This document shows, piece by piece, positions 15,731-27,765 of a DNA stretch of 46,329 nucleotides; position 1 is the first letter of the stretch; each line of letters starts with the position of its first letter. Made by a program: the position numbers and the translations under genes. Where the stretch lies: contig JAOPWV010000058.1 of NCBI GenBank assembly GCA_025965475.1, positions 1-46,329 of the forward strand, in the 5' to 3' direction. Source of the stretch: Frankiales bacterium (lineage in GTDB: Bacteria; Actinomycetota; Actinomycetes; Mycobacteriales; SCTD01). The notes below the pieces were generated by a model. That model saw only the letters and a list, made by a program, of their open reading frames with translations, did no database searches and was not told the DNA's origin.

Positions 15731-16540
15731 TCAGCGCAGGGTGCTTGTGGCCGTGAGCCGGCCAGCGGCGTCCGTGACCCGCGCGGAGATCCCGCGCTCA
15801 CCGTTCTCCGTGGCCACGCGCATGCGCTGCTCCCCGAACATCGGGGCGACCAGTCGGTAGGCGAACTCCTGACCGACTGCTGACACCCCCGACCGCCTGA
15901 TCAGCTCGCCCATCATCAGCGCCTGCAGCGGCCCGTGGATGACGAGACCGGGATAGCCCTCCTGCGCGGCGTACGCCGCGTCGTAGTGGATCCGGTGTGC
16001 GTTGTAGGTCAAGGCGGAGAACCGGAACAGCAGCACGGAGTCCACGTCAAGGCTGAGGTCGCAGGCGCCGGGGGCAGAGGCCCCCGGCGCCGGATCCTGG
16101 GGCAGGGTCGAGCCGGGGGCGCGGTAGACGATGTCCTGCTCGTCGCCGATGGCAAGCCGGCCGCCCTGCTCGATGTCGCTGCGGACCGTGACGAAGGTCA
16201 GCCGGCCGGACCTGCCGTCCTTCTCCGCGGTGTGCACCACGCGGGTGGTGCGGGTCGCCGGCTCGCCGAAGCGCAGCGGCGTGTGCAGGGTGACCCGGCC
16301 GCCGGCGAACATGCGCAACCGGCCGGGCCCGGGCGGCGCCGGGATCCCGTCGGTCGGATGGCCGTCGGGGCCGAGGTCGCTCTGCCTGCGTCGCTCGAGC
16401 AGGTAGACCCAGTGCCAGAGCGCAGGCAGATCTCCCTCGCCGGCAGGCGGATCGAGGTCCAGCATCCCGGCCAGCGCCTCGGCCGGCTCCGGCGTGATGA
16501 GCTCCGTGCGGGTGCTGACGTCCGGTTCACCCGAGGTCAT
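15731..16540 (-). CDS. Hotdog-fold hydratase, mesaconyl-C4-CoA/itaconyl-CoA hydratase type
   Basis: The 269-residue protein belongs to the FAS1-like/MaoC-type dehydratase group that includes mesaconyl-C4-CoA hydratase (Chloroflexus) and itaconyl-CoA hydratase. An N-terminal hotdog carries LWHWVYLLERRRQSDLG; the C-terminal hydratase motif is SALTYNAHRIHYD followed by GLVIHGPLQALMM. It would add water to an unsaturated C5-dicarboxyl-CoA to give citramalyl-CoA. The start at 16540 overlaps the CoA-transferase gene by 14 bases; no closer in-frame start exists. Its neighbours are a CaiB-type transferase and a CitE-type lyase, the same trio as in known itaconate and mesaconate pathways. Confidence 0.8.
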   Translation of the reverse strand: MTSGEPDVSTRTELITPEPAEALAGMLDLDPPAGEGDLPALWHWVYLLERRRQSDLGPDGHPTDGIPAPPGPGRLRMFAGGRVTLHTPLRFGEPATRTTRVVHTAEKDGRSGRLTFVTVRSDIEQGGRLAIGDEQDIVYRAPGSTLPQDPAPGASAPGACDLSLDVDSVLLFRFSALTYNAHRIHYDAAYAAQEGYPGLVIHGPLQALMMGELIRRSGVSAVGQEFAYRLVAPMFGEQRMRVATENGERGISARVTDAAGRLTATSTLR

Positions 16541-17693
16541 GGCGGTCCTTTGTGCGGCGGGGGGCGAACTCGTCGCGGACGGCCGCGGTGTGCTCGCCCA
16601 GCGCGGGGATCGGGCCCATCGCCGCCTCGCGGCCGGTCACGGTGACCGGGGGTAGCAACGAGCGCACCGGCCCGGCGGGGGAGTCCACCTCGCGCCAGCG
16701 GTCGCGGGCCGCGAGTTGGGGGTGCTCGGCGAACTCGTGCATCGTGCGCATGCGGGCGTTCGCGATACCGAGCTCGTCGAGGCGCTCGGTGACCTGCTCG
16801 GCCGTGAGGTGGGACAGCGCCTCCTCGAGCAACACGCGCAGCTCGGCGTCGTTCGTGACCCGGCTGGAGTTCCGGAGGAAGCGGGGGTCCTGCGCCAGCT
16901 CAGGTTGACCCAGCGCGTGGGCGCACAACGCCGCCCACTCCCGCTCGTTCTGCACACCGATGAAGACCTGCCCGCCGTCACCGGCGCGGTAGGGCCCGTA
17001 CGGGGAGATCGAGGCATGCCGGGCTCCCGTGCGCTCGGGCGGGGTGCCGCCGTATGTGGCGTAGAGGTAGGGCTGGCTGGCCCACTCGCCGAGGGCGTCC
17101 AGCATGGCCACCTGGAGACCCGTGCCCTCGCCGGTGCGCTCGCGCTCGTAGAGGGCGGTCAGCACCCCCGAGAACGCGTACATGCCGGCCGAGATGTCGG
17201 CGACCGAGATGCCGGCCTTGGCGGGGGAGTCGGGTGAGCCCGTCACGGACAGCAGGCCTGCCTCGCACTGGACGAGCAGGTCGTACGCCTTCTTGCTGCT
17301 GTACGGCCCGCCGGCTCCGTAACCGGAGATGGAACAGGTGATGAGCCGCGGATGCGCCGCGCGCAGAGTCTGTTCGTCCAGCCCCAGGCGGTTCGTCGCG
17401 CCGGGCACGAGGTTCTGCACGAAGACATCGGCTTGGGCCAGCAGCGCGTCGAGGAGCGCGCGGTCGTCGGGGTCCTTGATGTCGAGGGCGACGCTCTCCT
17501 TCCCGCGGTTGAGCCATACGAAGTAGCTCGACATGCCCTTGACCGTCTCGTCGTAGCTGCGGGCGAAGTCACCGCTGCCGGCCCGCTCGATCTTGATGAC
17601 CCGGGCGCCGAGGTCGGCGAGCTGCCGGGTGGCGAACGGCGCGGCCACCGCCTGCTCGAGCGCTACGACGGTGATGCCGCTCAGAGGGTGCAT
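16527..17693 (-). CDS. CaiB/BaiF family (type III) CoA-transferase
   Basis: The 388-residue protein is a family III CoA-transferase. The family opening LSGITVVALEQAVAAPFA is present, the catalytic Asp is Asp166 in ISVADISAGMYA, and the typical GEGTGLQVAMLDAL follows. It would move CoA from a donor such as succinyl-CoA onto a dicarboxylate, or within mesaconyl-CoA. ATG 17693 shares one base with the TGA of the lyase gene (TGATG). Between a hydratase and a lyase its most likely substrate is a C5 diacid (itaconate or mesaconate type); donor and acceptor are inferred from context. Confidence 0.87.
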   Translation of the reverse strand: MHPLSGITVVALEQAVAAPFATRQLADLGARVIKIERAGSGDFARSYDETVKGMSSYFVWLNRGKESVALDIKDPDDRALLDALLAQADVFVQNLVPGATNRLGLDEQTLRAAHPRLITCSISGYGAGGPYSSKKAYDLLVQCEAGLLSVTGSPDSPAKAGISVADISAGMYAFSGVLTALYERERTGEGTGLQVAMLDALGEWASQPYLYATYGGTPPERTGARHASISPYGPYRAGDGGQVFIGVQNEREWAALCAHALGQPELAQDPRFLRNSSRVTNDAELRVLLEEALSHLTAEQVTERLDELGIANARMRTMHEFAEHPQLAARDRWREVDSPAGPVRSLLPPVTVTGREAAMGPIPALGEHTAAVRDEFAPRRTKDRHDLG

Positions 17694-18562
17694 CAGGACC
17701 TCCGCGCGGGGCCGGGACGGGGCTCCACGCCGGCCTGTCGCAGGACCTGCCGCGCACGTTCCACGACCGGCCGGTCGACCATCTCCCCGTCCAGACGCCC
17801 TGCTGAGCCATCGCTGACGCTGTCCAGGAGACGGCGGGCCCGGCGCACGTCCTCCTCGCTGGGGCTGAATGCGCCGTTGACGGCCGCCACCTGGCGCGGA
17901 TGGATGCACAGCTTGCCGCCAAAGCCCAGGCCGGCCGCTGCGGCCGCGTCCGCCTCGATCACCAGCGGGTCGTCGAAGGCCCGCGTGACACCGTCCACGG
18001 GCGCGGCAACCCGGGCGGCACGGGACGCCACCACCAGGGAGGTGCGCGCGAACAACAGCGTTGCTGCCGTTTCCGTCGCGCCGATGTCGAGCGCGAAGTC
18101 GAGGGAGCCGAAGGCGAGGCGGACAACGCCCTGCGCGCCGGCCAGGTCGTACGCGCGGTGCACGCCCAGCGCGGTCTCGACGAGCGGGACCACCGGCGTG
18201 TGCGGACCCACGGTCTCGCTGAGCTCGGTGACCGCTCGGGAATCCTCGGCCTTCGGCACCATCACGGCACGCAGGCCCGGTAGTCCGGCCAGCGCGGCGA
18301 CGTCGGCGTCATAGTGCGGCGTGCCGCGGGCGTTGATCCGTACGCATGCCACACCCCCCTCCTGCAGCCAGCGGACGACCTCCGTACGGGCTGCCGTCTT
18401 GCGGTCGGTGGTGACCGCGTCCTCGAGGTCGCAGATCACGAGGTCCGCGCCGCTCGTGGCAGCCTTGCCGAACCGGTCTCGCCGGTCGCCGGGGACGAAC
18501 AGCCACGACCGGGCTTCCGCCACGGCCGGCAGCAGTGCGCGCGCCTCGGTGTCGCGATCCAT
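17693..18562 (-). CDS. CitE-family beta-hydroxyacyl-CoA lyase (citramalyl-CoA lyase type)
   Basis: The 289-residue TIM-barrel protein has the CitE/malyl-CoA lyase motifs RSWLFVPGDRRDRF, VICDLEDAVTTDRK, AVMVPKAEDS, the Glu-containing PLVETALGV, LAFGSLDFALDIGA and KLCIHPRQVAAV. It is near the length of stand-alone lyases rather than citrate lyase subunits, and no citrate lyase alpha or gamma subunit is nearby. It would cleave citramalyl-CoA to acetyl-CoA and pyruvate. ATG 18562 lies one base after the stop of the dehydrogenase gene, which sets the start; a longer in-frame version would overlap that gene. Confidence 0.87.
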   Translation of the reverse strand: MDRDTEARALLPAVAEARSWLFVPGDRRDRFGKAATSGADLVICDLEDAVTTDRKTAARTEVVRWLQEGGVACVRINARGTPHYDADVAALAGLPGLRAVMVPKAEDSRAVTELSETVGPHTPVVPLVETALGVHRAYDLAGAQGVVRLAFGSLDFALDIGATETAATLLFARTSLVVASRAARVAAPVDGVTRAFDDPLVIEADAAAAAGLGFGGKLCIHPRQVAAVNGAFSPSEEDVRRARRLLDSVSDGSAGRLDGEMVDRPVVERARQVLRQAGVEPRPGPARRS

Positions 18563-18563
18563 G

Positions 18564-19721
18564 TCAGGGGGCCACCGTTCCCCGGTCCACCAGCTGCCGG
18601 ACGATGACATTGCGCTGGATCTCGTTCGTCCCCTCGCCGACGATCATCAGCGGCGCGTCCCGGAAGTACCGCTCCACGTCGAACTCGGTGGAGTAGCCAT
18701 AGCCACCGTGGATCCGGATGGCATCGAGCGCGATCTGCATCGCCGTCTCGGAGGCGAACAGTTTGGCCATGCCGGCCTCCATGTCCGCGCGCTCCCCGGC
18801 GTCGAAGCGACGGCACGCGTACAGCACCAGTTGGCGGGCAGCGGTCAGCCGGGTCACCATGTCCGCGAGGTAGTTCCCGATCGACTGGTGCTTCCAGATC
18901 GGCTTGCCGAAGCTCTCACGTTCCTGCGCGTACTGGAGTGAGTCCTCCAGGGCGGCCCTGCCGACGCCCAGCGCCCGGGCGGCGACCTGGATACGGCCGA
19001 TCTCCAGCCCGCGCATCATCTGCCCGAATCCCTGCCCCTCCTGCTCGCCGAGCAGGGACGAGATGGGGACGCGGAAGTCGTCGAAGGAGATCTCGCAGCT
19101 CTCGACGCCCTTGTAGCCGAGCTTGGGCAGGTCACGGGAGAGGGTGAACCCCGGACCCTTCTCCGCCAGCAGGATGCTGATGCCCTGGTGCGCCGGTTTC
19201 GCGGCCGGGTCGGTCTTGCAGAGCAGCGCGACGAGACCGGCCCTGCGGGCGTTGGTGATCCAGGTCTTGGAGCCGTTGACGACGTACTCGTCGCCCACCC
19301 GGGCGGCGGTGGTCCGCATCGCCTGCAGGTCGGAGCCGCCCCCTGGCTCGGTGAGAGCCATCGTGGCGCGCAGCTCTCCGGTCGCCATCCGCGGCAGGTA
19401 GGCGTCCTTCTGCTCCTGCGTGCCGTAGTCGAGGATCAGCTTCGCCACCACGGTGTGCCCGCCCATGGCGCCGGCCAGGCTCATCCAGCCACGCGACAGC
19501 TCCTCGGTGACCAGCGCGTAGCAGGGGGTGCTCACGTGCCCCTGGCCCCACGGCTCGGGGATCGCCAACCCGAAGATGCCCAGCTGCTTCATCTGCTCGA
19601 TGAGCTTCTCCGGGTAGGTGTTCGTGTGGTCCAGCTCCTGCACCACCGGCTTCACATCGCGGTTCACGAAGTCGCGGACGGTCTCCACGATCGCCTGCTC
19701 TTCACCGTTCAGCCCCTCCAC
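18564..19721 (-). CDS. Acyl-CoA dehydrogenase
   Basis: The 385-residue flavoprotein has all three domains of the family. Signatures are ALTEPGGGSDLQAM, WITNARRAG in the middle domain, ESFGKPIWKHQSI and the C-terminal HGGYGYSTEFDVERYFRD. The catalytic base is the Glu of VGEGTNEIQR. It would introduce a double bond into a saturated acyl-CoA; in this cluster a branched dicarboxyl-CoA such as methylsuccinyl-CoA is plausible but unproven. GTG 19721 has GAGGAG five bases upstream. It is shorter than the Rhodobacter methylsuccinyl-CoA dehydrogenase I recall, so the substrate remains open. Confidence 0.9.
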   Translation of the reverse strand: MEGLNGEEQAIVETVRDFVNRDVKPVVQELDHTNTYPEKLIEQMKQLGIFGLAIPEPWGQGHVSTPCYALVTEELSRGWMSLAGAMGGHTVVAKLILDYGTQEQKDAYLPRMATGELRATMALTEPGGGSDLQAMRTTAARVGDEYVVNGSKTWITNARRAGLVALLCKTDPAAKPAHQGISILLAEKGPGFTLSRDLPKLGYKGVESCEISFDDFRVPISSLLGEQEGQGFGQMMRGLEIGRIQVAARALGVGRAALEDSLQYAQERESFGKPIWKHQSIGNYLADMVTRLTAARQLVLYACRRFDAGERADMEAGMAKLFASETAMQIALDAIRIHGGYGYSTEFDVERYFRDAPLMIVGEGTNEIQRNVIVRQLVDRGTVAP

Positions 19722-19770
19722 GGGGACTCCTCTCGGGTTGGGGTGGTGCCTGGTTCGCGGCGACAGCGGA

Positions 19771-20958
19771 TCACAGATGGTCACGCAGGATCTGCCCCGC
19801 GGTCGGCCAGTCGATGGTGTCCGGGTCCAGTGAGGTGCCGGACAGGCAGTCCTGCAGCTTGCGCGCCATCTCCGACGGCGTAGGAGGCCGCTGCGGCGAG
19901 CCGGGTGGAAAGCGCTGCCGTGCGCGGAGGACCTGAACGCCGACGTGGACCTCCGCCTCCAACTCGCCGGCGAGCAGCCAGTCGCCGCCCTCGACGAGCT
20001 CCACGTCGACAAGATCCACCAGCCGGCGGGCCGCCGGCCGCTGGGCCGCCTGGTCGGTGAAACTGGCGAAGCCCTGATAGGCGTCGAGCAGAGCCGTCGC
20101 CGCGGCGTACTCGATGCTGAACTTGGCCTGCAGGCCGGTGTCCGGGCGGTGATGGATCAGCGGCATCACCGTGCCGGCCGGCGTCCTGATCACGATGCGG
20201 CTGATCTCGGCCGGATCCAGCCCCTCGCCGACCAGCTGGGACAGCGCGCTGATCGGGCGCTGCAGTGCATAGCAGCAGGGGAAGATCTTGATGGCCAGGC
20301 CGCCCGGTACCGCCGGCCCTGCCAGGTCCAGGGCGGATACGTCGCCGCCCACGAGCCGGAGCCAGCTGTCGAGGGCATGCGGGTCGGCGGTTGCGCCGGC
20401 CGCGGCCAGGTGCGCAGCCCGTACGCCGGCCTCGGCGGCGAAGCCGACCTGCAGTGACTTGGCGTCCGTACCGAACGCACGTTGGACGCCACCCGCTGCC
20501 GGGACCGCCAGGGCCATGGCGATCGCGATCCGCTCGGTGTCGAGGCCGAGGGCGATGGCCGCGCCGACGGCGGCTGCCGGGGCGCCGGCCGTGGTCGTGG
20601 CGTGCCACCCGGCCGAGTAGTGCGACCAGCCCAGCGCCGAGCCGAGCCGCGCCATGACACCTGCCGCGGCGAGGTAGGCGCGGGCGCCACCCCCGGTCGC
20701 CAGGACGGCGGGTACGCACACGGCGCTGATGTGGGTCGTCGACTGCATGTGCAGGTCGTCGAAGTCCAGGACATGGCCCGCCACGGCCCAGCGCCCGGCC
20801 TCGGACAGAGCCGCCGACGCGCGCACGACAGGCTCGGCGCGCGCGGCCACGGCCACGGCCACCGTGTCGAGGAGAGAGCGCTCCGCCAGCTCGAGGTCCG
20901 CAGCGGTCGGCTCGAAGTCGGTGGCCCACCGGGCCAGTCCGGCGGCAACGGAGCTCAC
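19771..20958 (-). CDS. MmgE/PrpD family protein
   Basis: The 395-residue protein belongs to the MmgE/PrpD superfamily, which contains 2-methylcitrate dehydratase, cis-aconitate decarboxylase and iminodisuccinate epimerase. Typical elements are HVLDFDDLHM near residue 65, KSLQVGFAAEAGVRAAHL, FPCCYALQRPI and the C-terminal KFSIEYAAATALL. It is shorter than PrpD (about 450-480) mainly at the C-terminal side. GTG 20958 has a strong GGAGGAGG site just upstream, so I prefer it to an ATG 15 codons earlier. It is the first gene of the five-gene CoA operon. Making itaconate, dehydrating or epimerising a C5/C6 acid are all possible. Confidence 0.85.
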   Translation of the reverse strand: MSSVAAGLARWATDFEPTAADLELAERSLLDTVAVAVAARAEPVVRASAALSEAGRWAVAGHVLDFDDLHMQSTTHISAVCVPAVLATGGGARAYLAAAGVMARLGSALGWSHYSAGWHATTTAGAPAAAVGAAIALGLDTERIAIAMALAVPAAGGVQRAFGTDAKSLQVGFAAEAGVRAAHLAAAGATADPHALDSWLRLVGGDVSALDLAGPAVPGGLAIKIFPCCYALQRPISALSQLVGEGLDPAEISRIVIRTPAGTVMPLIHHRPDTGLQAKFSIEYAAATALLDAYQGFASFTDQAAQRPAARRLVDLVDVELVEGGDWLLAGELEAEVHVGVQVLRARQRFPPGSPQRPPTPSEMARKLQDCLSGTSLDPDTIDWPTAGQILRDHL

Positions 20959-21006
20959 ACGCCACCTCCTCCAGGACAGGACAGCGCTGCATGAGTGCGC
21001 CATACG

Positions 21007-21047
21007 TAATGTACGGCCATTAGGCTGGCCTTGGCTCGTCCTGTCAA
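21007..21047 (-). promoter_or_regulatory. Promoter and dyad operator 1, upstream of the MmgE/PrpD operon
   Basis: On the minus strand a perfect -35 TTGACA (21047-21042) is followed after 17 bases by -10 CCTAAT (21024-21019). The dyad TAATGTACGGCCATTA (21007-21022) covers the -10; its arms TAATG and CATTA are exact inverted repeats. Two close copies of this sequence lie in the GntR and MFS promoters. Confidence 0.7.
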
Positions 21048-21105
21048 GGGCGCCGCAGCGTCCGGGGCGCGGACGTCTGGCTGCCCAGGGCCGCGCGGCG
21101 CGTGC

Positions 21106-21852
21106 CTAACTCGGGTTGCGCCGGAGCCGGACCCGGTAGGAGTACCGGTCCGGGTGGAAGTGGCTGATGGCCAGCTCGACCGGCTCTCCGTCGGCGTCGA
21201 AGTACATGCGGTCGATCCGCAGCAACGGAGTGCCGGGCTCCAGGCCCAGGCCCTCGGCCGCCTCGCCGCGGGCGGTCCCCACTGTGATGCTCTGCTCGGC
21301 GTCCTGGATCGGGGAGGCGAGCACCCGGTCCAGCAGACCGATGAGCGTGACCGGACTGACGGTGCCGGCGGAGGCCAGTTCCTTCACGTCACCGAGTCGG
21401 GCGGCGACCCGTGGCGGCAGCGCGACACTGGTGTGGGAGAAGGCCTCGCCGTGGTGGAGCCGGAGGAACGTCGTCGTCGTGATCCGGTCGTCCGGCAGGC
21501 GCAATCTGCCCGCGGCGGTGGGATCAACCGCTGCGGCAAGGGGACGGAGGACCCGCAGCTGGCTGTCCGCGGACAGGGCCATGAGGTCTTCGACGGAGCC
21601 GAACTGTCGCAGGTACCGCCCCGAGGTGGGCGTCACGAACGTGCCTCGCCCCGGAACCCGGAACACGAGGTCCTCGGCGACCAGGTCCTGGAACGCGCGC
21701 CGCACCGTCTGACGGCTGACGGAATACTTGCTCGCGATCTCGGCCTCGGTGGGCAGTGCCGCGTCGGGGCCGAACTCGTGGCCGAGGATCTGCGAGCGCA
21801 AGTCGCTCCAGACGCGCCGGAAGGCGGGTTCGCGCCGGCCCGGTGTGCCCAC
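21106..21852 (-). CDS. GntR-family (HutC subfamily) transcriptional regulator
   Basis: The 248-residue protein has an N-terminal GntR winged helix (about residues 10-75; PTEAEIASKYSVSRQTVRRA, then GRGTFV) and a C-terminal UTRA ligand domain (about 100-240; LRIDRMYFDADGEPVELA near its end). HutC-type regulators usually repress until a small ligand binds the UTRA pocket. GTG 21852 has AGGAG six bases upstream and gives the normal family length; the frame stays open further upstream through its own promoter. It lies between two divergent catabolic arms, both preceded by the same dyad, and also by a copy in its own promoter, so it probably controls both arms and itself. Confidence 0.92.
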   Translation of the reverse strand: MGTPGRREPAFRRVWSDLRSQILGHEFGPDAALPTEAEIASKYSVSRQTVRRAFQDLVAEDLVFRVPGRGTFVTPTSGRYLRQFGSVEDLMALSADSQLRVLRPLAAAVDPTAAGRLRLPDDRITTTTFLRLHHGEAFSHTSVALPPRVAARLGDVKELASAGTVSPVTLIGLLDRVLASPIQDAEQSITVGTARGEAAEGLGLEPGTPLLRIDRMYFDADGEPVELAISHFHPDRYSYRVRLRRNPS

Positions 21853-21884
21853 GTCTCGCTCCTGTCCTGGGACTGAACAAGCTG

Positions 21885-21924
21885 ATATGTCAGGCCAGAT
21901 AGGTACTGGTACTGCCCTCTGCAA
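21885..21924 (-). promoter_or_regulatory. Promoter and dyad operator 2, upstream of the GntR gene
   Basis: On the minus strand TTGCAG (21924-21919) and TATCTG (21901-21896) are spaced by 17 bases. The dyad ATATGTCAGGCCAGAT (21885-21900) covers the -10. It matches operator 3 at 18 of 21 positions over the extended site, in the same orientation to its promoter, which suggests autoregulation. Confidence 0.65.
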
Positions 21925-22066
21925 CGCCTGCGCATCAGCGCCAACGGCAGTTTAGGGCCCGCCCAGCGTCCCCGTGGCCAGGTGGAAACAGCTGGGCCAC
22001 AAGAACGTCTGGTGCGTGGCCCGGCTCGCGGCGAGGGGCAGAGCGCTGTTCTGTTCGCGGAAACTC

Positions 22067-22108
22067 TTGACCGGGCCTGGGACCATCGCTATATATGGCC
22101 TTACATAT
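22067..22108 (+). promoter_or_regulatory. Promoter and dyad operator 3, upstream of the MFS operon
   Basis: TTGACC (22067-22072) and TATATA (22090-22095) are spaced by exactly 17 bases. The dyad ATATGGCCTTACATAT (22093-22108) begins inside the -10; its arms ATATG and CATAT (read on the minus strand) are perfect. Transcription should start near 22102, leaving a leader of about 177 bases before the MFS start. Confidence 0.7.
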
Positions 22109-22278: not shown

Positions 22279-23646
22279 ATGGACGTAACTGATCAGCTGG
22301 TCTATGAGGCGCCTCAGGTCACCGACAGGGATGTGAGGATCGCGACCTGGGTGTGCTTCTTCGCGTGGACGTTCGCGGTCTACGACTTCGTACTGTTCGG
22401 CAATCTGCTTCCCAAGCTGGCCGCCGACCTCGGCTGGTCGTCGGGCCACTCCACGGGCGTGAACACCTGGGTGACGGCCGGTACCGCGCTCGTCGCGTTC
22501 GGTGTCGGTCCGCTGGCTGACCGGCTCGGTCGGCGCAAGGGCATCATCATCGCTGTCGTGGGCGCCGCCGTGGCTTCGCTCCTGACCGCGTTCGCGGGAT
22601 GGCTGATCGGCGTGATCGCTGGTGTCGGTCTCGTCGTCCTGGTCCTGGTGCGCTCTCTTGCCGGCCTCGGGTATGCCGAGCAGGCGATCAACGCGACCTA
22701 CCTCAACGAGCTGTTCGCCCACGTCTACTCCGACCCGGCCAAGGCGCGTCGCCGCGGGCTCATCTACTCCCTGGTGCAGTCGGGCTGGCCCATCGGCTCC
22801 GTGCTCGCGGCCGCGTCGATCTACCTGCTGTTCCCGATCGGCGGCTGGTCCCTGTGCTTCATCGTCGCCGTGTTCCCGGCCATCTTCATGGTCTGGGCGG
22901 GCCGCTACCTCAAGGAGAGCCCGCAGTTCGTGATGCGTCACCGGGCCGAGTCGCTGCTGGCCGACGGGCGCACGGAGGAGGCGCACGCGCTGGCGGCCCA
23001 GGCCGGCGTCGACCTGTCGGACCAGTCGACGCCGCTGGCGTCCGCGTTCAAGGGCGAGTCGTTGCGGTCCACCGTCGTCATCGGTATCGCCTTCCTGCTC
23101 AACTGGCTGGGCGTCCTCGCGTTCGCGATCCTCGGCACCTCCCTGCTGACCGCGAAGGACGGCAAGGGCATCGCGTTCGACAGCGCGCTGGCGATCCTCA
23201 TCGTCTCCAACGCGACCGCGTTCGCCGGCTACCTCTTCCACGGCTGGCTCGGCGACCAGATCGGCCGGCGCAACGCGATCGCGCTCGGGTGGATCCTGTG
23301 CGGGGCCTCCTTCAGCGGGATGCTGCTCGCCCCGAACGGGAACTTCGGCCTGATCATCGCCCTGTACAGCGCGGGACTGTTCTTCCTCATCGGCCCCTAC
23401 TCGGCGCTGCTGTTCTTCAACGGCGAGAGTTTCCCGGTCCACACCCGCGCGACCGGCGGCTCCATCATCAACGCTGCCGGCCAGGTCGGGGCGATCATCG
23501 GCGGCCTGCTCATCACCTGGGCGCTGAACAACGGTCAGAGCTGGACGCAGGCGACGTTCCTGTTCGGCTGCCTGCCCATCTTCGCGTCGGGCCTGATCAT
23601 CCTCGGTGCCCGCAATGTCGACCCGCGCAAGGTGCGGCTCGACTGA
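22279..23646 (+). CDS. MFS transporter (sugar/acid porter type)
   Basis: The 455-residue permease has 12 predicted transmembrane segments and the MFS loop motif GPLADRLGRRKG between segments 2 and 3, repeated in weaker form as GWLGDQIGRRN in the second half. The LKESPQF segment after TM6 is typical of the sugar-porter and acid-symporter groups. It probably imports the substrate of this regulon by proton symport. ATG 22279 is the first start after the promoter; the upstream extension of the frame runs through the promoter and operator and is not coding. Two bases after its stop the amidohydrolase gene begins. Confidence 0.88.
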   Translation: MDVTDQLVYEAPQVTDRDVRIATWVCFFAWTFAVYDFVLFGNLLPKLAADLGWSSGHSTGVNTWVTAGTALVAFGVGPLADRLGRRKGIIIAVVGAAVASLLTAFAGWLIGVIAGVGLVVLVLVRSLAGLGYAEQAINATYLNELFAHVYSDPAKARRRGLIYSLVQSGWPIGSVLAAASIYLLFPIGGWSLCFIVAVFPAIFMVWAGRYLKESPQFVMRHRAESLLADGRTEEAHALAAQAGVDLSDQSTPLASAFKGESLRSTVVIGIAFLLNWLGVLAFAILGTSLLTAKDGKGIAFDSALAILIVSNATAFAGYLFHGWLGDQIGRRNAIALGWILCGASFSGMLLAPNGNFGLIIALYSAGLFFLIGPYSALLFFNGESFPVHTRATGGSIINAAGQVGAIIGGLLITWALNNGQSWTQATFLFGCLPIFASGLIILGARNVDPRKVRLD

Positions 23647-23647
23647 G

Positions 23648-24310
23648 ATGCCGGGGAACAGCGAGGTCGACGCGCTGACGCACGAGACCTACCGCAGGGC
23701 GGGGTTCACGGGCTCGTTCGAGTTCGGGGTCCGGCCGGCCCTGCTGGTGGTGGACTTCTGCCGCGGTTTCACCGACCCTGCATGTCCGCTGGGCTCGGAC
23801 ACGACCGCGGAGGTCGAGCGCACTCGGGTGCTGCTCGACGTCGCCCGGGCACGCTCGACTTTCGTCGTCTTCACGACCATCGCGTACGACGAGGGGGCGC
23901 GCGCGACCACCACGTGGCTGCGCAAGGTCCCGTCCCTCGGCGAGCTGACCGTCGGTTCCCCGTGGGTCGACATCGACGTGCGGCTGGGGCGGCTCGACCA
24001 CGAGCCGGTCGTGGCCAAGCACGGCGCCTCCGCCTTCTTCGGGACGCCGCTGCAGGCCCTTCTCGTGGCCGCCAGGATCGACACCGTCCTCGTCATGGGT
24101 GCGACCACGTCCGGCTGCGTGCGCGCCTCGGTCGTGGACGCGGTCCAGTACGGCTTCCCGACCTTCGTGGTCACCGACTGCTGTGCGGACAGGTCGGCCG
24201 GTCCGCACGACGCGAACCTGTTCGACATGACGGCGAAGTACGCCGATCCCCTCACCTCCGAGGAGGTGGTGAGCCACCTCCAGCGACTGCCCGAGACCGC
24301 GCTGCGCTGA
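23648..24310 (+). CDS. Isochorismatase-fold amidohydrolase (N-carbamoylsarcosine/maleamate amidase type)
   Basis: The 220-residue cysteine hydrolase has the full catalytic triad: Asp36 in [10 protein letters not shown], Lys124 in [13 protein letters not shown] and Cys157 in [12 protein letters not shown]. The N-terminal extension with [18 protein letters not shown] matches the N-carbamoylsarcosine amidase and maleamate amidase branch, which hydrolyse terminal amides of small acids with release of ammonia. ATG 23648 follows the MFS stop by one base. Beside an imidase-fold protein it would be the natural half-amide hydrolase of a cyclic imide pathway; the exact substrate is inferred. Confidence 0.85.
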
Positions 24311-24408
24311 CCCCGGCGTCCCGACACCGCAGCAACGCAGTCCGTGCGTTCCCGCCCCACCCAGCCACTGCTCGGCGCCGCCGCGTGCGCCACCTACGAG
24401 GAGATGAC

Positions 24409-25323
24409 ATGCCCAAGGACATCAAGTGCGTATTCGGCGTCGACGTGGACGCCGTCGGAGGATGGCTCGGCTCGTACGGCGGTGAGGACTCGCCGTCGGA
24501 CATCCAGCGGGGGATGTTCTCGGGCGACATCGGGACGCCGCGCATGCTGAGGCTCTTCCAGAAGTACGGCGTACCTGCCACCTGGTTCATCCCGGGCCAC
24601 TCGATCGAGACCTTTCCGGACTCGGTGAAGCAGATCGTCGACGCGGGCCACGAGATCGGTGCGCACGGCTACTCGCACGAGAACCCGGTCGCGATGACGG
24701 CGAAGCAGGAGGAGGACGTCCTGTCGCGCTGCGTGGAGCTGATCGAGAAGGTCAGTGGGCAGGCGCCCCGGGGCTACGTCGCGCCGTGGTGGGAGATGTC
24801 GAACGCCACCGCGTCGCTGTTGCAGAAGTACGGCTTCACGTACGACCACAGCCAGGGCTTCCACGACTTCACGCCCTTCTACGCCCGGGTCGGCGACACC
24901 TGGACCAAGATCGACTACACCCAGGAGGCCAGCACGTGGATGAAGCCGCTCGAGCGCGGCGAGGTGATCGACCTCGTCGAGATCGGCGCGAACTGGTACA
25001 TGGACGACCTGCCGCCGATGATGTTCATCAAGAAGGCGCCGAACAGCGGCGGCTGGGTGAATCCGCGTGACGTCGAGCAGTGGTGGAAGGACGAGTTCGA
25101 CTGGGTGTACCGCGAGCAGGACTACGGCGTCTACGCGTTCACGATCCACCCGGACGTCTCGGGTCGCCCCCAGGTTCTGCTCATGCTCGAGCGGATGATC
25201 GAGTACATCAACGGCCACGAGGGCGTCAGCTGGGTCACCATGGAGGACGCGGCGAACGACTTCCGCAAGCGGTACGCCTTTCCGGGATCGCAGGGCAGCC
25301 CGTTCATGCCCGGTTCGGTCTGA
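24409..25323 (+). CDS. Polysaccharide-deacetylase-fold hydrolase (imidase/PuuE/HpPgdA type)
   Basis: The 304-residue metalloenzyme has the CE4/NodB fold without signal peptide, so it acts in the cytoplasm, unlike true peptidoglycan deacetylases. Metal and catalytic residues are Asp12/Asp14 in GVDVDAV and His86/His90 in HGYSH, with YVAPWWE and a late His in FTIHPDVSG. Cytoplasmic members of this branch include PuuE-type allantoinases and a Pseudomonas putida imidase that opens cyclic imides. GAGGAG lies just before ATG 24409. Next to an amide-hydrolysing cysteine hydrolase and an importer, opening of a cyclic imide or related ring is the most economical role, though unproven. Confidence 0.82.
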
Positions 25324-25400: not shown

Positions 25401-25718
25401 ATGTGTGTGCTCTGCTACGAGCTGGCCCCGGACGACCACTGGTCGGACGGGGTCTCGGACGATGCCGCGCGGACCCTGCCGGGCCGGGCGCGGTACCGGC
25501 GTACGCGCCTGCTCTCCGTGGTCCTGGCCCCGTACGGCCTGACCGTGTCCGACCCGGGCAGCGGCCCGCAGTGCGTGGTCGCCGACCGCAAGGGGGCGGC
25601 CGTCGTGGCGGCCGGCCTGCCCGCCGTCTGGCGGGCTGCCGACGAGCTGTCGCCGAGAAGGCTCGACGTGCTCGACCCGACACTCCTCGCGGCGCTGAGC
25701 CCGGACGTCGCGGAGTGA
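25401..25718 (+). CDS. Small CxxC protein paired with CobW GTPase
   Basis: The 105-residue protein begins MCVLCYEL, placing a CxxC pair at residues 2-5, followed by an Asp/His-rich segment DDHWSD and a basic RYRRTR. The rest (VVLAPYGLTV, VVADRKGAAVVAAGL) looks like a compact alpha/beta domain. I do not know a named function. Its TGA overlaps the GTG of the CobW gene (GTGA), so the two are co-translated. A CxxC partner of a metal-handling GTPase suggests metal binding or transfer. Confidence 0.75.
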   Translation: MCVLCYELAPDDHWSDGVSDDAARTLPGRARYRRTRLLSVVLAPYGLTVSDPGSGPQCVVADRKGAAVVAAGLPAVWRAADELSPRRLDVLDPTLLAALSPDVAE

Positions 25719-26701
25719 CACTGCTCAGCCTGCCGGCGGTCGCTGAGCCGGCCGCCGACGGTCAGGGCCGGCGCCGGGTGACGCTGCTCAGCGGCTTTCT
25801 CGGGTCGGGCAAGACGACGCTGCTACGGCGCGAGTTGGACCGCGACACGGGCCGGCCACCGGCCGTGATCGTCAACGACTTCGGGCGGACCATGGTCGAC
25901 GACGTGCTGCTCACGGTCGACGGGGAACGTCCGGTCGTCCTGTCCGGCGGCTGCGCGTGCTGCACCCGGCGGGACGACCTGGCCCAGGCCCTCGCCGGTC
26001 TGCTGGACGCCGAGCAGCGCGGCCGAGCGCCGCGCCGCGAACACGTCGTGATCGAGACCAGCGGCCTGTCCGACCCGGGGCCCATCGCGTTCACGATCGC
26101 GAACGACCCCGTCCTGAAGCACCACTACGCACTGGCCCGGGTGTGCGTCACCGTCGACGCCCTCACCGGCCTGGCCAGCCTCGAGCACCACGAGGTGGCG
26201 CTGCGGCAGTTGCTCGCGGCCGACGACGTGCTGGTCACCAAGGCGGACCTGGTCGAGGCCGAACAGGTCGAAAAGCTGGTCGGCCGGCTGCGCGAGCTCA
26301 ATCCGTCGGCCCGGGTGAGCGTCACGGCCGCCGGTGAGCTGCTGCGCACCACGGCCCCGACAGCCGGCGCCCGGCCGGCACCGCGGCCGGTCATGGCGGC
26401 GCACACCAACGGCATCTCCACGTTGGAGCTGGTCACCGACGACCGTTGGGACTGGCAGGCGTTCTCGATCTGGCTCAGCCTGTTGCTGCACCGGCACGGC
26501 CAGGACGTGCTCAGGGTCAAGGGTGTCCTGGACGTCCGTGACGTCGGGCCGGTCGCCCTCAACGGGGTGCAGCACGTGGTGCACCGGCCCGAGCACCTCA
26601 CCGGTACGGTGCCGCCGGGCACCCGGCTCGTCTTCATCGTCCGCGACATCGACACCGCACTGCTCGAACGTTCCTTCCACACGTTCGTCGGCCTCGGATG
26701 A
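25715..26701 (+). CDS. CobW/COG0523 GTPase, putative metallochaperone
   Basis: The 328-residue GTPase has Walker A GFLGSGKT (residues 27-34), the diagnostic metal motif GGCACC (78-83), a Walker B-like ETSGLSDPGP and the guanine motif TKAD. The C-terminal CobW domain follows (RVKGVLDV and later). COG0523 proteins load zinc, iron or cobalt into client enzymes using GTP. GTG 25715 is fixed by the four-base overlap with the CxxC gene. The client may be the adjacent metal-dependent imidase-fold hydrolase; this is inferred from adjacency. No typical His-rich loop is apparent. Confidence 0.9.
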   Translation: MTLLSLPAVAEPAADGQGRRRVTLLSGFLGSGKTTLLRRELDRDTGRPPAVIVNDFGRTMVDDVLLTVDGERPVVLSGGCACCTRRDDLAQALAGLLDAEQRGRAPRREHVVIETSGLSDPGPIAFTIANDPVLKHHYALARVCVTVDALTGLASLEHHEVALRQLLAADDVLVTKADLVEAEQVEKLVGRLRELNPSARVSVTAAGELLRTTAPTAGARPAPRPVMAAHTNGISTLELVTDDRWDWQAFSIWLSLLLHRHGQDVLRVKGVLDVRDVGPVALNGVQHVVHRPEHLTGTVPPGTRLVFIVRDIDTALLERSFHTFVGLG

Positions 26702-26715
26702 GAGGCGAAGGGACC

Positions 26716-27765
26716 ATGGCTGCACAGGCTGAACTGCCCCGCGTGACGGTCTTCTCCCTCGGCGGCACCATCGCCTCGACGAGTTCCGGCGGCGGGGGAG
26801 CGGCAGGCGGGGTCAGGCCACGCCTGGGGGCCCAGGAGCTCGTCGAGGCTGTGCCGCAGCTGCGCGATGTCGCGGAGCTGGAGGCAGTGGCCTTTCGCCA
26901 GGCCGCCTCGGGCGACCTGACCCTGCCGGACATGATCGCGCTGGCCGCGGAGATCATCCGGCGGTTCGACGCCGGCTCCAGTGGAGTCGTGGTGACCCAG
27001 GGAACCGACACGATCGAGGAGACGTCGTTCGCGCTGGACCTCCTGGTCCGGAGTCCGCGCCCGGTCGTCGTCACGGGTGCGATGCGCAACCCGACCCTGG
27101 CGGGCGCCGATGGCCCGGCGAACCTCCTCGGTGCGGTGCAGGTGGCGGCGGCACCGGAGGCGGGCGGCCTGGGCACCCTGGTCGTGCTCAACGACGAGAT
27201 CCATGCCGCGCGGTTCGTGCGCAAGACGCACACGTCCAGTCCCGCCACCTTCCGTTCTCCCACGGCCGGTCCGCTCGGCTGGATCGTCGAGGGCCGCCCG
27301 CGCATCGCCCTGCGTACGCCGGTGCTCGACGGCCTGCCGTCGGTCCTCGACCAGGACGTGCCTCCGGTGGCGCTGGTCACCGCGGTCCTCGGTGACGACG
27401 CCCGGCTGGTCGAACGCGTCGAGGAGGCCGGGTACGCCGGCCTGGTACTCGCCGGCTTCGGTGGCGGTCACGTCCCGGCGCAGGTCGTCCCTGCCTTGGC
27501 GGACCTGGCCAGCCGGCTGCCGGTGGTGCTGGCCTCCCGTACCGGCGGCGGCGAGCTCCTGCAGGAGACGTACGGCTTCCCCGGCTCCGAGCGTGACCTG
27601 CTGGCGCGCGGGCTGATCCCGGCCGGCTTCCTGGACGGGCTGAAGGCCCGCATCCTGCTCAGCCTGCTGCTCGCAGCCGGAGCGGACCTGGAGGGGGTGC
27701 GCAAGGCGTTCGAGCAGATCAACGCGTCCGTCTCCTCAGCCGGTGCAGGAGAAGCGGGCCGCTGA
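26716..27765 (+). CDS. L-asparaginase (classical amidohydrolase family)
   Basis: The 349-residue protein shows both threonine motifs of the classical asparaginase family: SLGGTIAS with Thr18, and VVTQGTDTIEE with Thr97/Asp98/Thr99. The catalytic-lysine region is RFVRKTHTSS. It lacks a signal peptide, so it acts in the cytoplasm. I chose ATG 26716, preceded by GAAGGG, over ATG 26698, which overlaps the CobW stop (ATGA) but lacks a good ribosome site. It ends the operon started by the MFS gene, and may hydrolyse asparagine or another amide formed by the pathway. Confidence 0.9.
   Translation: MAAQAELPRVTVFSLGGTIASTSSGGGGAAGGVRPRLGAQELVEAVPQLRDVAELEAVAFRQAASGDLTLPDMIALAAEIIRRFDAGSSGVVVTQGTDTIEETSFALDLLVRSPRPVVVTGAMRNPTLAGADGPANLLGAVQVAAAPEAGGLGTLVVLNDEIHAARFVRKTHTSSPATFRSPTAGPLGWIVEGRPRIALRTPVLDGLPSVLDQDVPPVALVTAVLGDDARLVERVEEAGYAGLVLAGFGGGHVPAQVVPALADLASRLPVVLASRTGGGELLQETYGFPGSERDLLARGLIPAGFLDGLKARILLSLLLAAGADLEGVRKAFEQINASVSSAGAGEAGR

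Follow-up and report, generated by a model that had tools for sequence, protein, structure and literature searches.

Three pseudo-palindromic sites predicted as operators of a GntR/HutC regulator set between two catabolic arms in a Frankiales genome

HutC repressors whose operators lie over promoters are already known. NagR (YvoA) of Bacillus subtilis and DasR of Streptomyces bind 16-bp pseudo-palindromic dre-sites, the natural copies of which are imperfect palindromes (PMC4333415). In NagR, Arg38 reads the G at position -5, Arg48 reads the G at -4, and Gly69, in the wing, reaches into the minor groove (PMC4333415). For the HutC subfamily as a whole, the main text of a comparative study gives the motif N(y)GTMTAKACN(y), with GT and AC 4 nt apart, describes divergent operons as often controlled, and makes no mention of itaconate (PMC4494728). 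The itaconate regulator ItcR is LysR-type (PMC9636186), and the itaconate cluster of Pseudomonas aeruginosa uses a TRAP transporter (PMC12599236). From P. putida with PA0878-PA0886 it was concluded that the acyl-CoA dehydrogenase acts on methylsuccinyl-CoA and that the MmgE/PrpD protein isomerises methylsuccinate (PMC9875883).

We analyzed a 46,329-nt stretch of DNA from a Frankiales bacterium (hereafter the window) in which a GntR/HutC gene lies between a prpD arm and an MFS arm, an arrangement that shares divergent-operon control with the HutC-subfamily regulons as described in the main text of that study (PMC4494728). Three dyads at this locus are very probably the operators of the regulator encoded between them, which would repress both arms and possibly its own gene; the binding, the repression, the inducer and the substrate are predicted from comparison. 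No description of the regulator or of its site was found in a search of open-access literature. Regulator and operator here form a precisely defined pair, open to experiment, for a catabolic pathway that occurs in Streptomyces, Saccharopolyspora, Streptosporangium, Modestobacter and other genera.

The regulator and three matching sites

The regulator gene (21106..21852, minus strand; start chosen by ribosome-binding site and homologues) encodes a 248-aa protein with a winged helix and a UTRA domain. Its Pfam matches, to GntR at the N terminus (2.1e-18) and to UTRA at the C terminus (7e-17), are both above cut-off. The nearest relatives in the PDB are NagR/YvoA and DasR, which have the same domain layout and likewise 16-bp pseudo-palindromic sites; identity to them is low and, unlike theirs, the target genes here are not for N-acetylglucosamine.

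A first-pass annotation had proposed three copies of a 16-bp dyad, and all three sequences are found where it placed them. Site 1 (21007..21022, minus strand) reads TAATGGCCGTACATTA toward prpD and lies over the -10 element of the prpD-arm promoter; site 2 (21885..21900, minus strand), the weakest copy, reads ATCTGGCCTGACATAT toward gntR; and site 3 (22093..22108, plus strand) reads ATATGGCCTTACATAT toward the MFS arm. Their common core, ATGTNNGGCCA (ATGTnnGGCCA), is found exactly three times in the window, where 0.20 copies would be expected, and 0 of 100 shuffles reach that count. The arms are symmetric or nearly so, as annotated: WWWTG-N6-CAWWW matches sites 1 and 3 exactly (0.02 expected in the window), and site 2 has a single arm mismatch (ATATG/CAGAT). 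The reported identity of sites 2 and 3 at 18 of 21 positions was reproduced by hand alignment.

In the whole 3.89-Mb genome, a pattern search returned 13 copies of ATGTNNGGCCA, and the W-rich arms are absent from all 10 that lie outside the window. Across the genome, the full pattern WWWTGNNNGGCCAWWW is matched perfectly twice, each time inside the window, and with a single mismatch in three places, site 2 among them. With the window and its near relatives left out of the matrix, sites 1 to 3 still rank highest in the window (site 1, 25.1 bits; site 3, 23.9 bits; site 2, 12.6 bits), the next best place scoring 6.2 bits. The occurrence of the dyad is real and far above chance.

We compared the residues that would contact DNA with the site itself. 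Across 84 regulator sequences, the equivalents of Arg48 and Gly69 are invariant (84/84), and the Arg38 equivalent has been lost in every one, being Ala, Ser or Glu. Both half-sites carry G at -4, which the Arg48 equivalent would read as in NagR and DasR, and both carry T at -5, unlike the G of the dre-sites. The recognition residues thus fit the site, with Arg48 kept alongside G-4 and Arg38 lost where T replaces G-5. This agreement played no part in finding the site and lends independent support to the pairing of regulator and site.

The site has the HutC layout GT-N4-AC with G at -4 in both halves, with AC in one half and CC in the other. Its centre is CG instead of TA, which makes it a deviating member of the GntR/HutC operators. 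The asymmetric GGCCGTAC core around this CG sets it apart from the sites of NagR and DasR, and its GKMC-GTAC-like form distinguishes it from the HutC motif given in the main text of the comparative study (PMC4494728).

Promoter registers and orientation of the site

Each site had been described as overlapping the -10 element of a promoter with a 17-base spacer, and three such -35/-10 pairs do exist, all weak by the E. coli consensus. The predicted prpD-arm promoter (21019..21047, minus strand) pairs TTGACA (21047-21042) with CCTAAT (21024-21019) over 17 bp, and the predicted MFS-arm promoter (22067..22095, plus strand) pairs TTGACC with TATATA, also over 17 bp; at both, the -35 phase is conserved. 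A possible gntR promoter (21896..21924, minus strand), with TTGCAG, 17 bp and TATCTG, is weak. A strict sigma-70 scan reports 0 promoters at the three sites, so the promoter claim rests on comparison, namely on a -35 element at a fixed position relative to the site in other genomes.

Read along the downstream gene, the site consensus is WWWTGGCCGTACAWWW. We had counted orientation by known target genes, and replaced that count by a test on the -35 element because divergent promoters blurred it. Upstream TTGAC is found at 88/102 sites in their native orientation, against 4/102 with the site flipped, and with near-duplicates removed it remains phased at 70/84 sites against 4/84. This phasing in one orientation ties the asymmetric core to the direction of transcription, an unusual feature. 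Where the first-pass annotation saw a dyad, a more apt description is a pseudo-palindrome whose asymmetric centre is conserved and whose orientation is fixed.

Distances from TTGAC to the core fall into clusters of 15-16, 26-28 and 37-38 bases. Judged by eye, the right arm can act as the -10 element in the 15-16 class, the left arm can do so in the 26-28 class (which includes sites 1 and 3 of the window), and the site lies downstream of the -10 element in the 37-38 class. Many other genera show different registers of overlap between site and promoter.

All three registers suit a repressor, and it is this position of the site that leads us to infer repression. Even in the 26-28 class the direction of the asymmetric core is fixed. 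One site direction relative to transcription in all three registers could instead reflect contact with RNA polymerase by a regulator that activates or has a dual role. We consider this improbable: in every register the site overlaps the spacer, the -10 element or the start region, and a dimer sitting there should obstruct polymerase; among solved structures the nearest relatives, NagR and DasR, both act by repression. As a repressor, the regulator dimer would bind WWWTGGCCGTACAWWW across each promoter's -10 region, blocking RNA polymerase, and a pathway metabolite bound to the UTRA domain would release it.

Conservation of the pair and the status of site 2

The first-pass annotation had suggested looking for the dyads at homologous GntR loci, and they are kept in relatives that keep the gene and both arms. 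Among related genomes, four hold five regulator orthologues of about 50-56% identity; a strict pattern finds the site in L045, L047 and L048, and in L046 it is visible as TTGGTACGGCCAATG. In a collection scan of actinobacteria, the site scores at least 20 bits in 78/80 orthologue loci, a set that includes related, non-independent genomes and whose sites trained the matrix, and in 0/25 loci of paralogous GntR genes, a smaller control.

Among 395 genomes of the class, 14 have the exact site, 18 the regulator and 13 both. Of the exact sites in this set, 14/15 lie in regulator-bearing genomes, most within a few kb of the gene; three of these genomes, the window's own, G030 and G055, had helped define the pattern. 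The site is absent nearby in 15 genomes that have an imidase-type gene and lack such a regulator. These counts bear on whether the dyads, which overlap -10-like sequence, could be core-promoter sequence or AT-rich chance matches. We regard this as extremely unlikely: conservation within the site is highest in its GC-rich centre TGGCCGTACA, which tracks the regulator across the 395 genomes and which lies at varied registers to the -35 element. Chance or plain promoter sequence was rejected on the rarity of the full pattern in the genome together with this co-occurrence.

Among the closest relatives (73-80% identity), the site precedes prpD in L049-L052 and L054, and mfs in L049, L050, L052 and L054. 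The mfs arm of L050 and L054 no longer faces gntR, and its site is still kept. In Modestobacter L051 the MFS arm is replaced by a TRAP transporter (DctP, DctM), with the site facing it, and this is of note because the itaconate cluster of P. aeruginosa, PA0878-PA0886, also relies on a TRAP transporter (PMC9875883, PMC12599236). In many Streptomyces, gntR is the last gene of a regulated operon.

Two further loci drew attention in the collection. Metagenome bins titled Bifidobacterium breve (L088, L096, L108) have the regulator together with its sites; the DNA there is 63-65% G+C, and the species label may be wrong. At L044 (4969-7506), a paralogue of the regulator lies behind the same operator with an apparent thiamine-diphosphate-dependent enzyme and no dicarboxylate genes, so this regulator subgroup may control more than one pathway.

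The annotation had one GntR repressor acting on both arms and on itself. Sites kept in relatives bear this out for the arms, and the case for self-control is weaker, as site 2 is the weakest copy. It scores 20.0 bits, falling to 12.6 with the matrix built from distant loci, under which controls and shuffles reach 16 to 17 bits; on that test alone, site 2 therefore does not reach significance. L049-L052 and L054 yielded no site oriented toward gntR, which leaves direct autoregulation uncertain and suggests that autoregulation through site 2, if it occurs, may be special to this genome.

The regulator might thus act through sites 1 and 3 only, with site 2 a chance or decayed copy, or an auxiliary site of the MFS promoter, and gntR not directly autoregulated. 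We take this to be a serious possibility, if not a probable one. The lack of a gntR-oriented site in the closest relatives, a distant-loci score inside the range of the controls, and the weak -35 and -10 elements at site 2 all speak for it. Against it, site 2 departs from the full pattern at a single position, resembles site 3 closely, and lies 40 nt from the gntR start, oriented and roughly in register as a site of a gntR promoter should be; moreover, the site stands directly before gntR at some distant loci. Our preferred reading keeps control of both arms by the regulator, with its own gene as a possible third target.

The two arms and their predicted pathway

The prpD arm, on the minus strand, encodes an MmgE/PrpD family protein (19771..20961), methylsuccinate isomerase-like by analogy with PA0881 (PMC9875883); an acyl-CoA dehydrogenase (18564..19874), methylsuccinyl-CoA dehydrogenase-like by analogy with PA0879 (PMC9875883); a CitE/RipC-like C-C lyase (17693..18610), a candidate citramalyl-CoA lyase; a CaiB/BaiF family III CoA-transferase (16527..17699); and a MaoC-type hydratase (15731..16540). 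The hydratase has itaconyl-CoA hydratase 8khg as its best solved-structure match (8e-51), the lyase best matches the acyl-CoA lyase entries 9nzb and 8khl, and the PrpD protein is nearest to iminodisuccinate epimerase, as reported for PA0881. The CoA-transferase, hydratase and lyase genes are adjacent in one operon, as in degradation clusters. The best NCBIfam match of the lyase, RipC_Ccl, reaches 167.5 bits against a curated cut-off of 375, so we call it RipC-like, not RipC, and assign its substrate by analogy. Further CitE/RipC-like lyase genes lie in this genome outside the window (G000 contig C179:1262-3003).

Likened by enzyme type, this arm resembles PA0878-PA0886 of P. aeruginosa, in which a hydratase, an acyl-CoA dehydrogenase, an MmgE/PrpD protein, a CoA-transferase and a lyase also occur together. 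It differs from that cluster in having a GntR/HutC regulator in place of the LysR-type ItcR (PMC9636186) and in the added MFS and amidohydrolase arm, and no counterpart of the lactonase PA0880 was seen at the present cluster. Taken together, the enzyme types and the hydratase, lyase and PrpD matches point to a methyl-branched C5 dicarboxylate as our best guess for the substrate. Release of the regulator would turn on CoA activation and cleavage of this compound by the prpD-AcDH-citE-caiB-maoC arm, which would yield pyruvate and acetyl-CoA from, for example, methylsuccinate or itaconate; gntR itself might be turned on as well.

Uptake and amide or imide hydrolysis would be turned on in parallel from the MFS arm. 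On the plus strand, it encodes an MFS transporter (22279..23646), an isochorismatase-family amidohydrolase (23648..24310), a PuuE/polysaccharide-deacetylase-type hydrolase that is a candidate cyclic imidase (24373..25323), a CobW-like GTPase reading frame (25403..26701, the limits of the open frame; named from its sequence alone), and an asparaginase-type amidohydrolase (26698..27765). We infer that this arm would import a precursor and then deamidate or de-imidate it.

A broader reading, offered tentatively and judged possible more than probable, is that the locus belongs to an undescribed, actinomycete-wide GntR/HutC regulon for methyl-branched dicarboxylates. Its operator would be asymmetric and direction-locked, and either of the two AT arms could supply the -10 element. 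In the present genome and related ones, the regulon would also have taken in a cyclic-imide arm, through which imides, methylsuccinimide for example, would enter the pathway. The regulator-operator model itself, if right, would tie breakdown of the itaconate/methylsuccinate type to a GntR repressor instead of a LysR regulator, predict substrates for unassigned operons and offer a biosensor part.

Two features of the MFS arm deserve mention in their own right. The isochorismatase-family gene, present in the window and in L052, was not detected in L049, L050 and L054, which keep the rest of the arm; the arm may therefore do without it, or the asparaginase-type enzyme may have taken its place. 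The imidase-type protein, which belongs to a subfamily whose activity merits re-examination, aligns over nearly its full length with 3qbu/4ly4, the H. pylori-type "peptidoglycan deacetylase" (3.7e-144), far above any other deacetylase.
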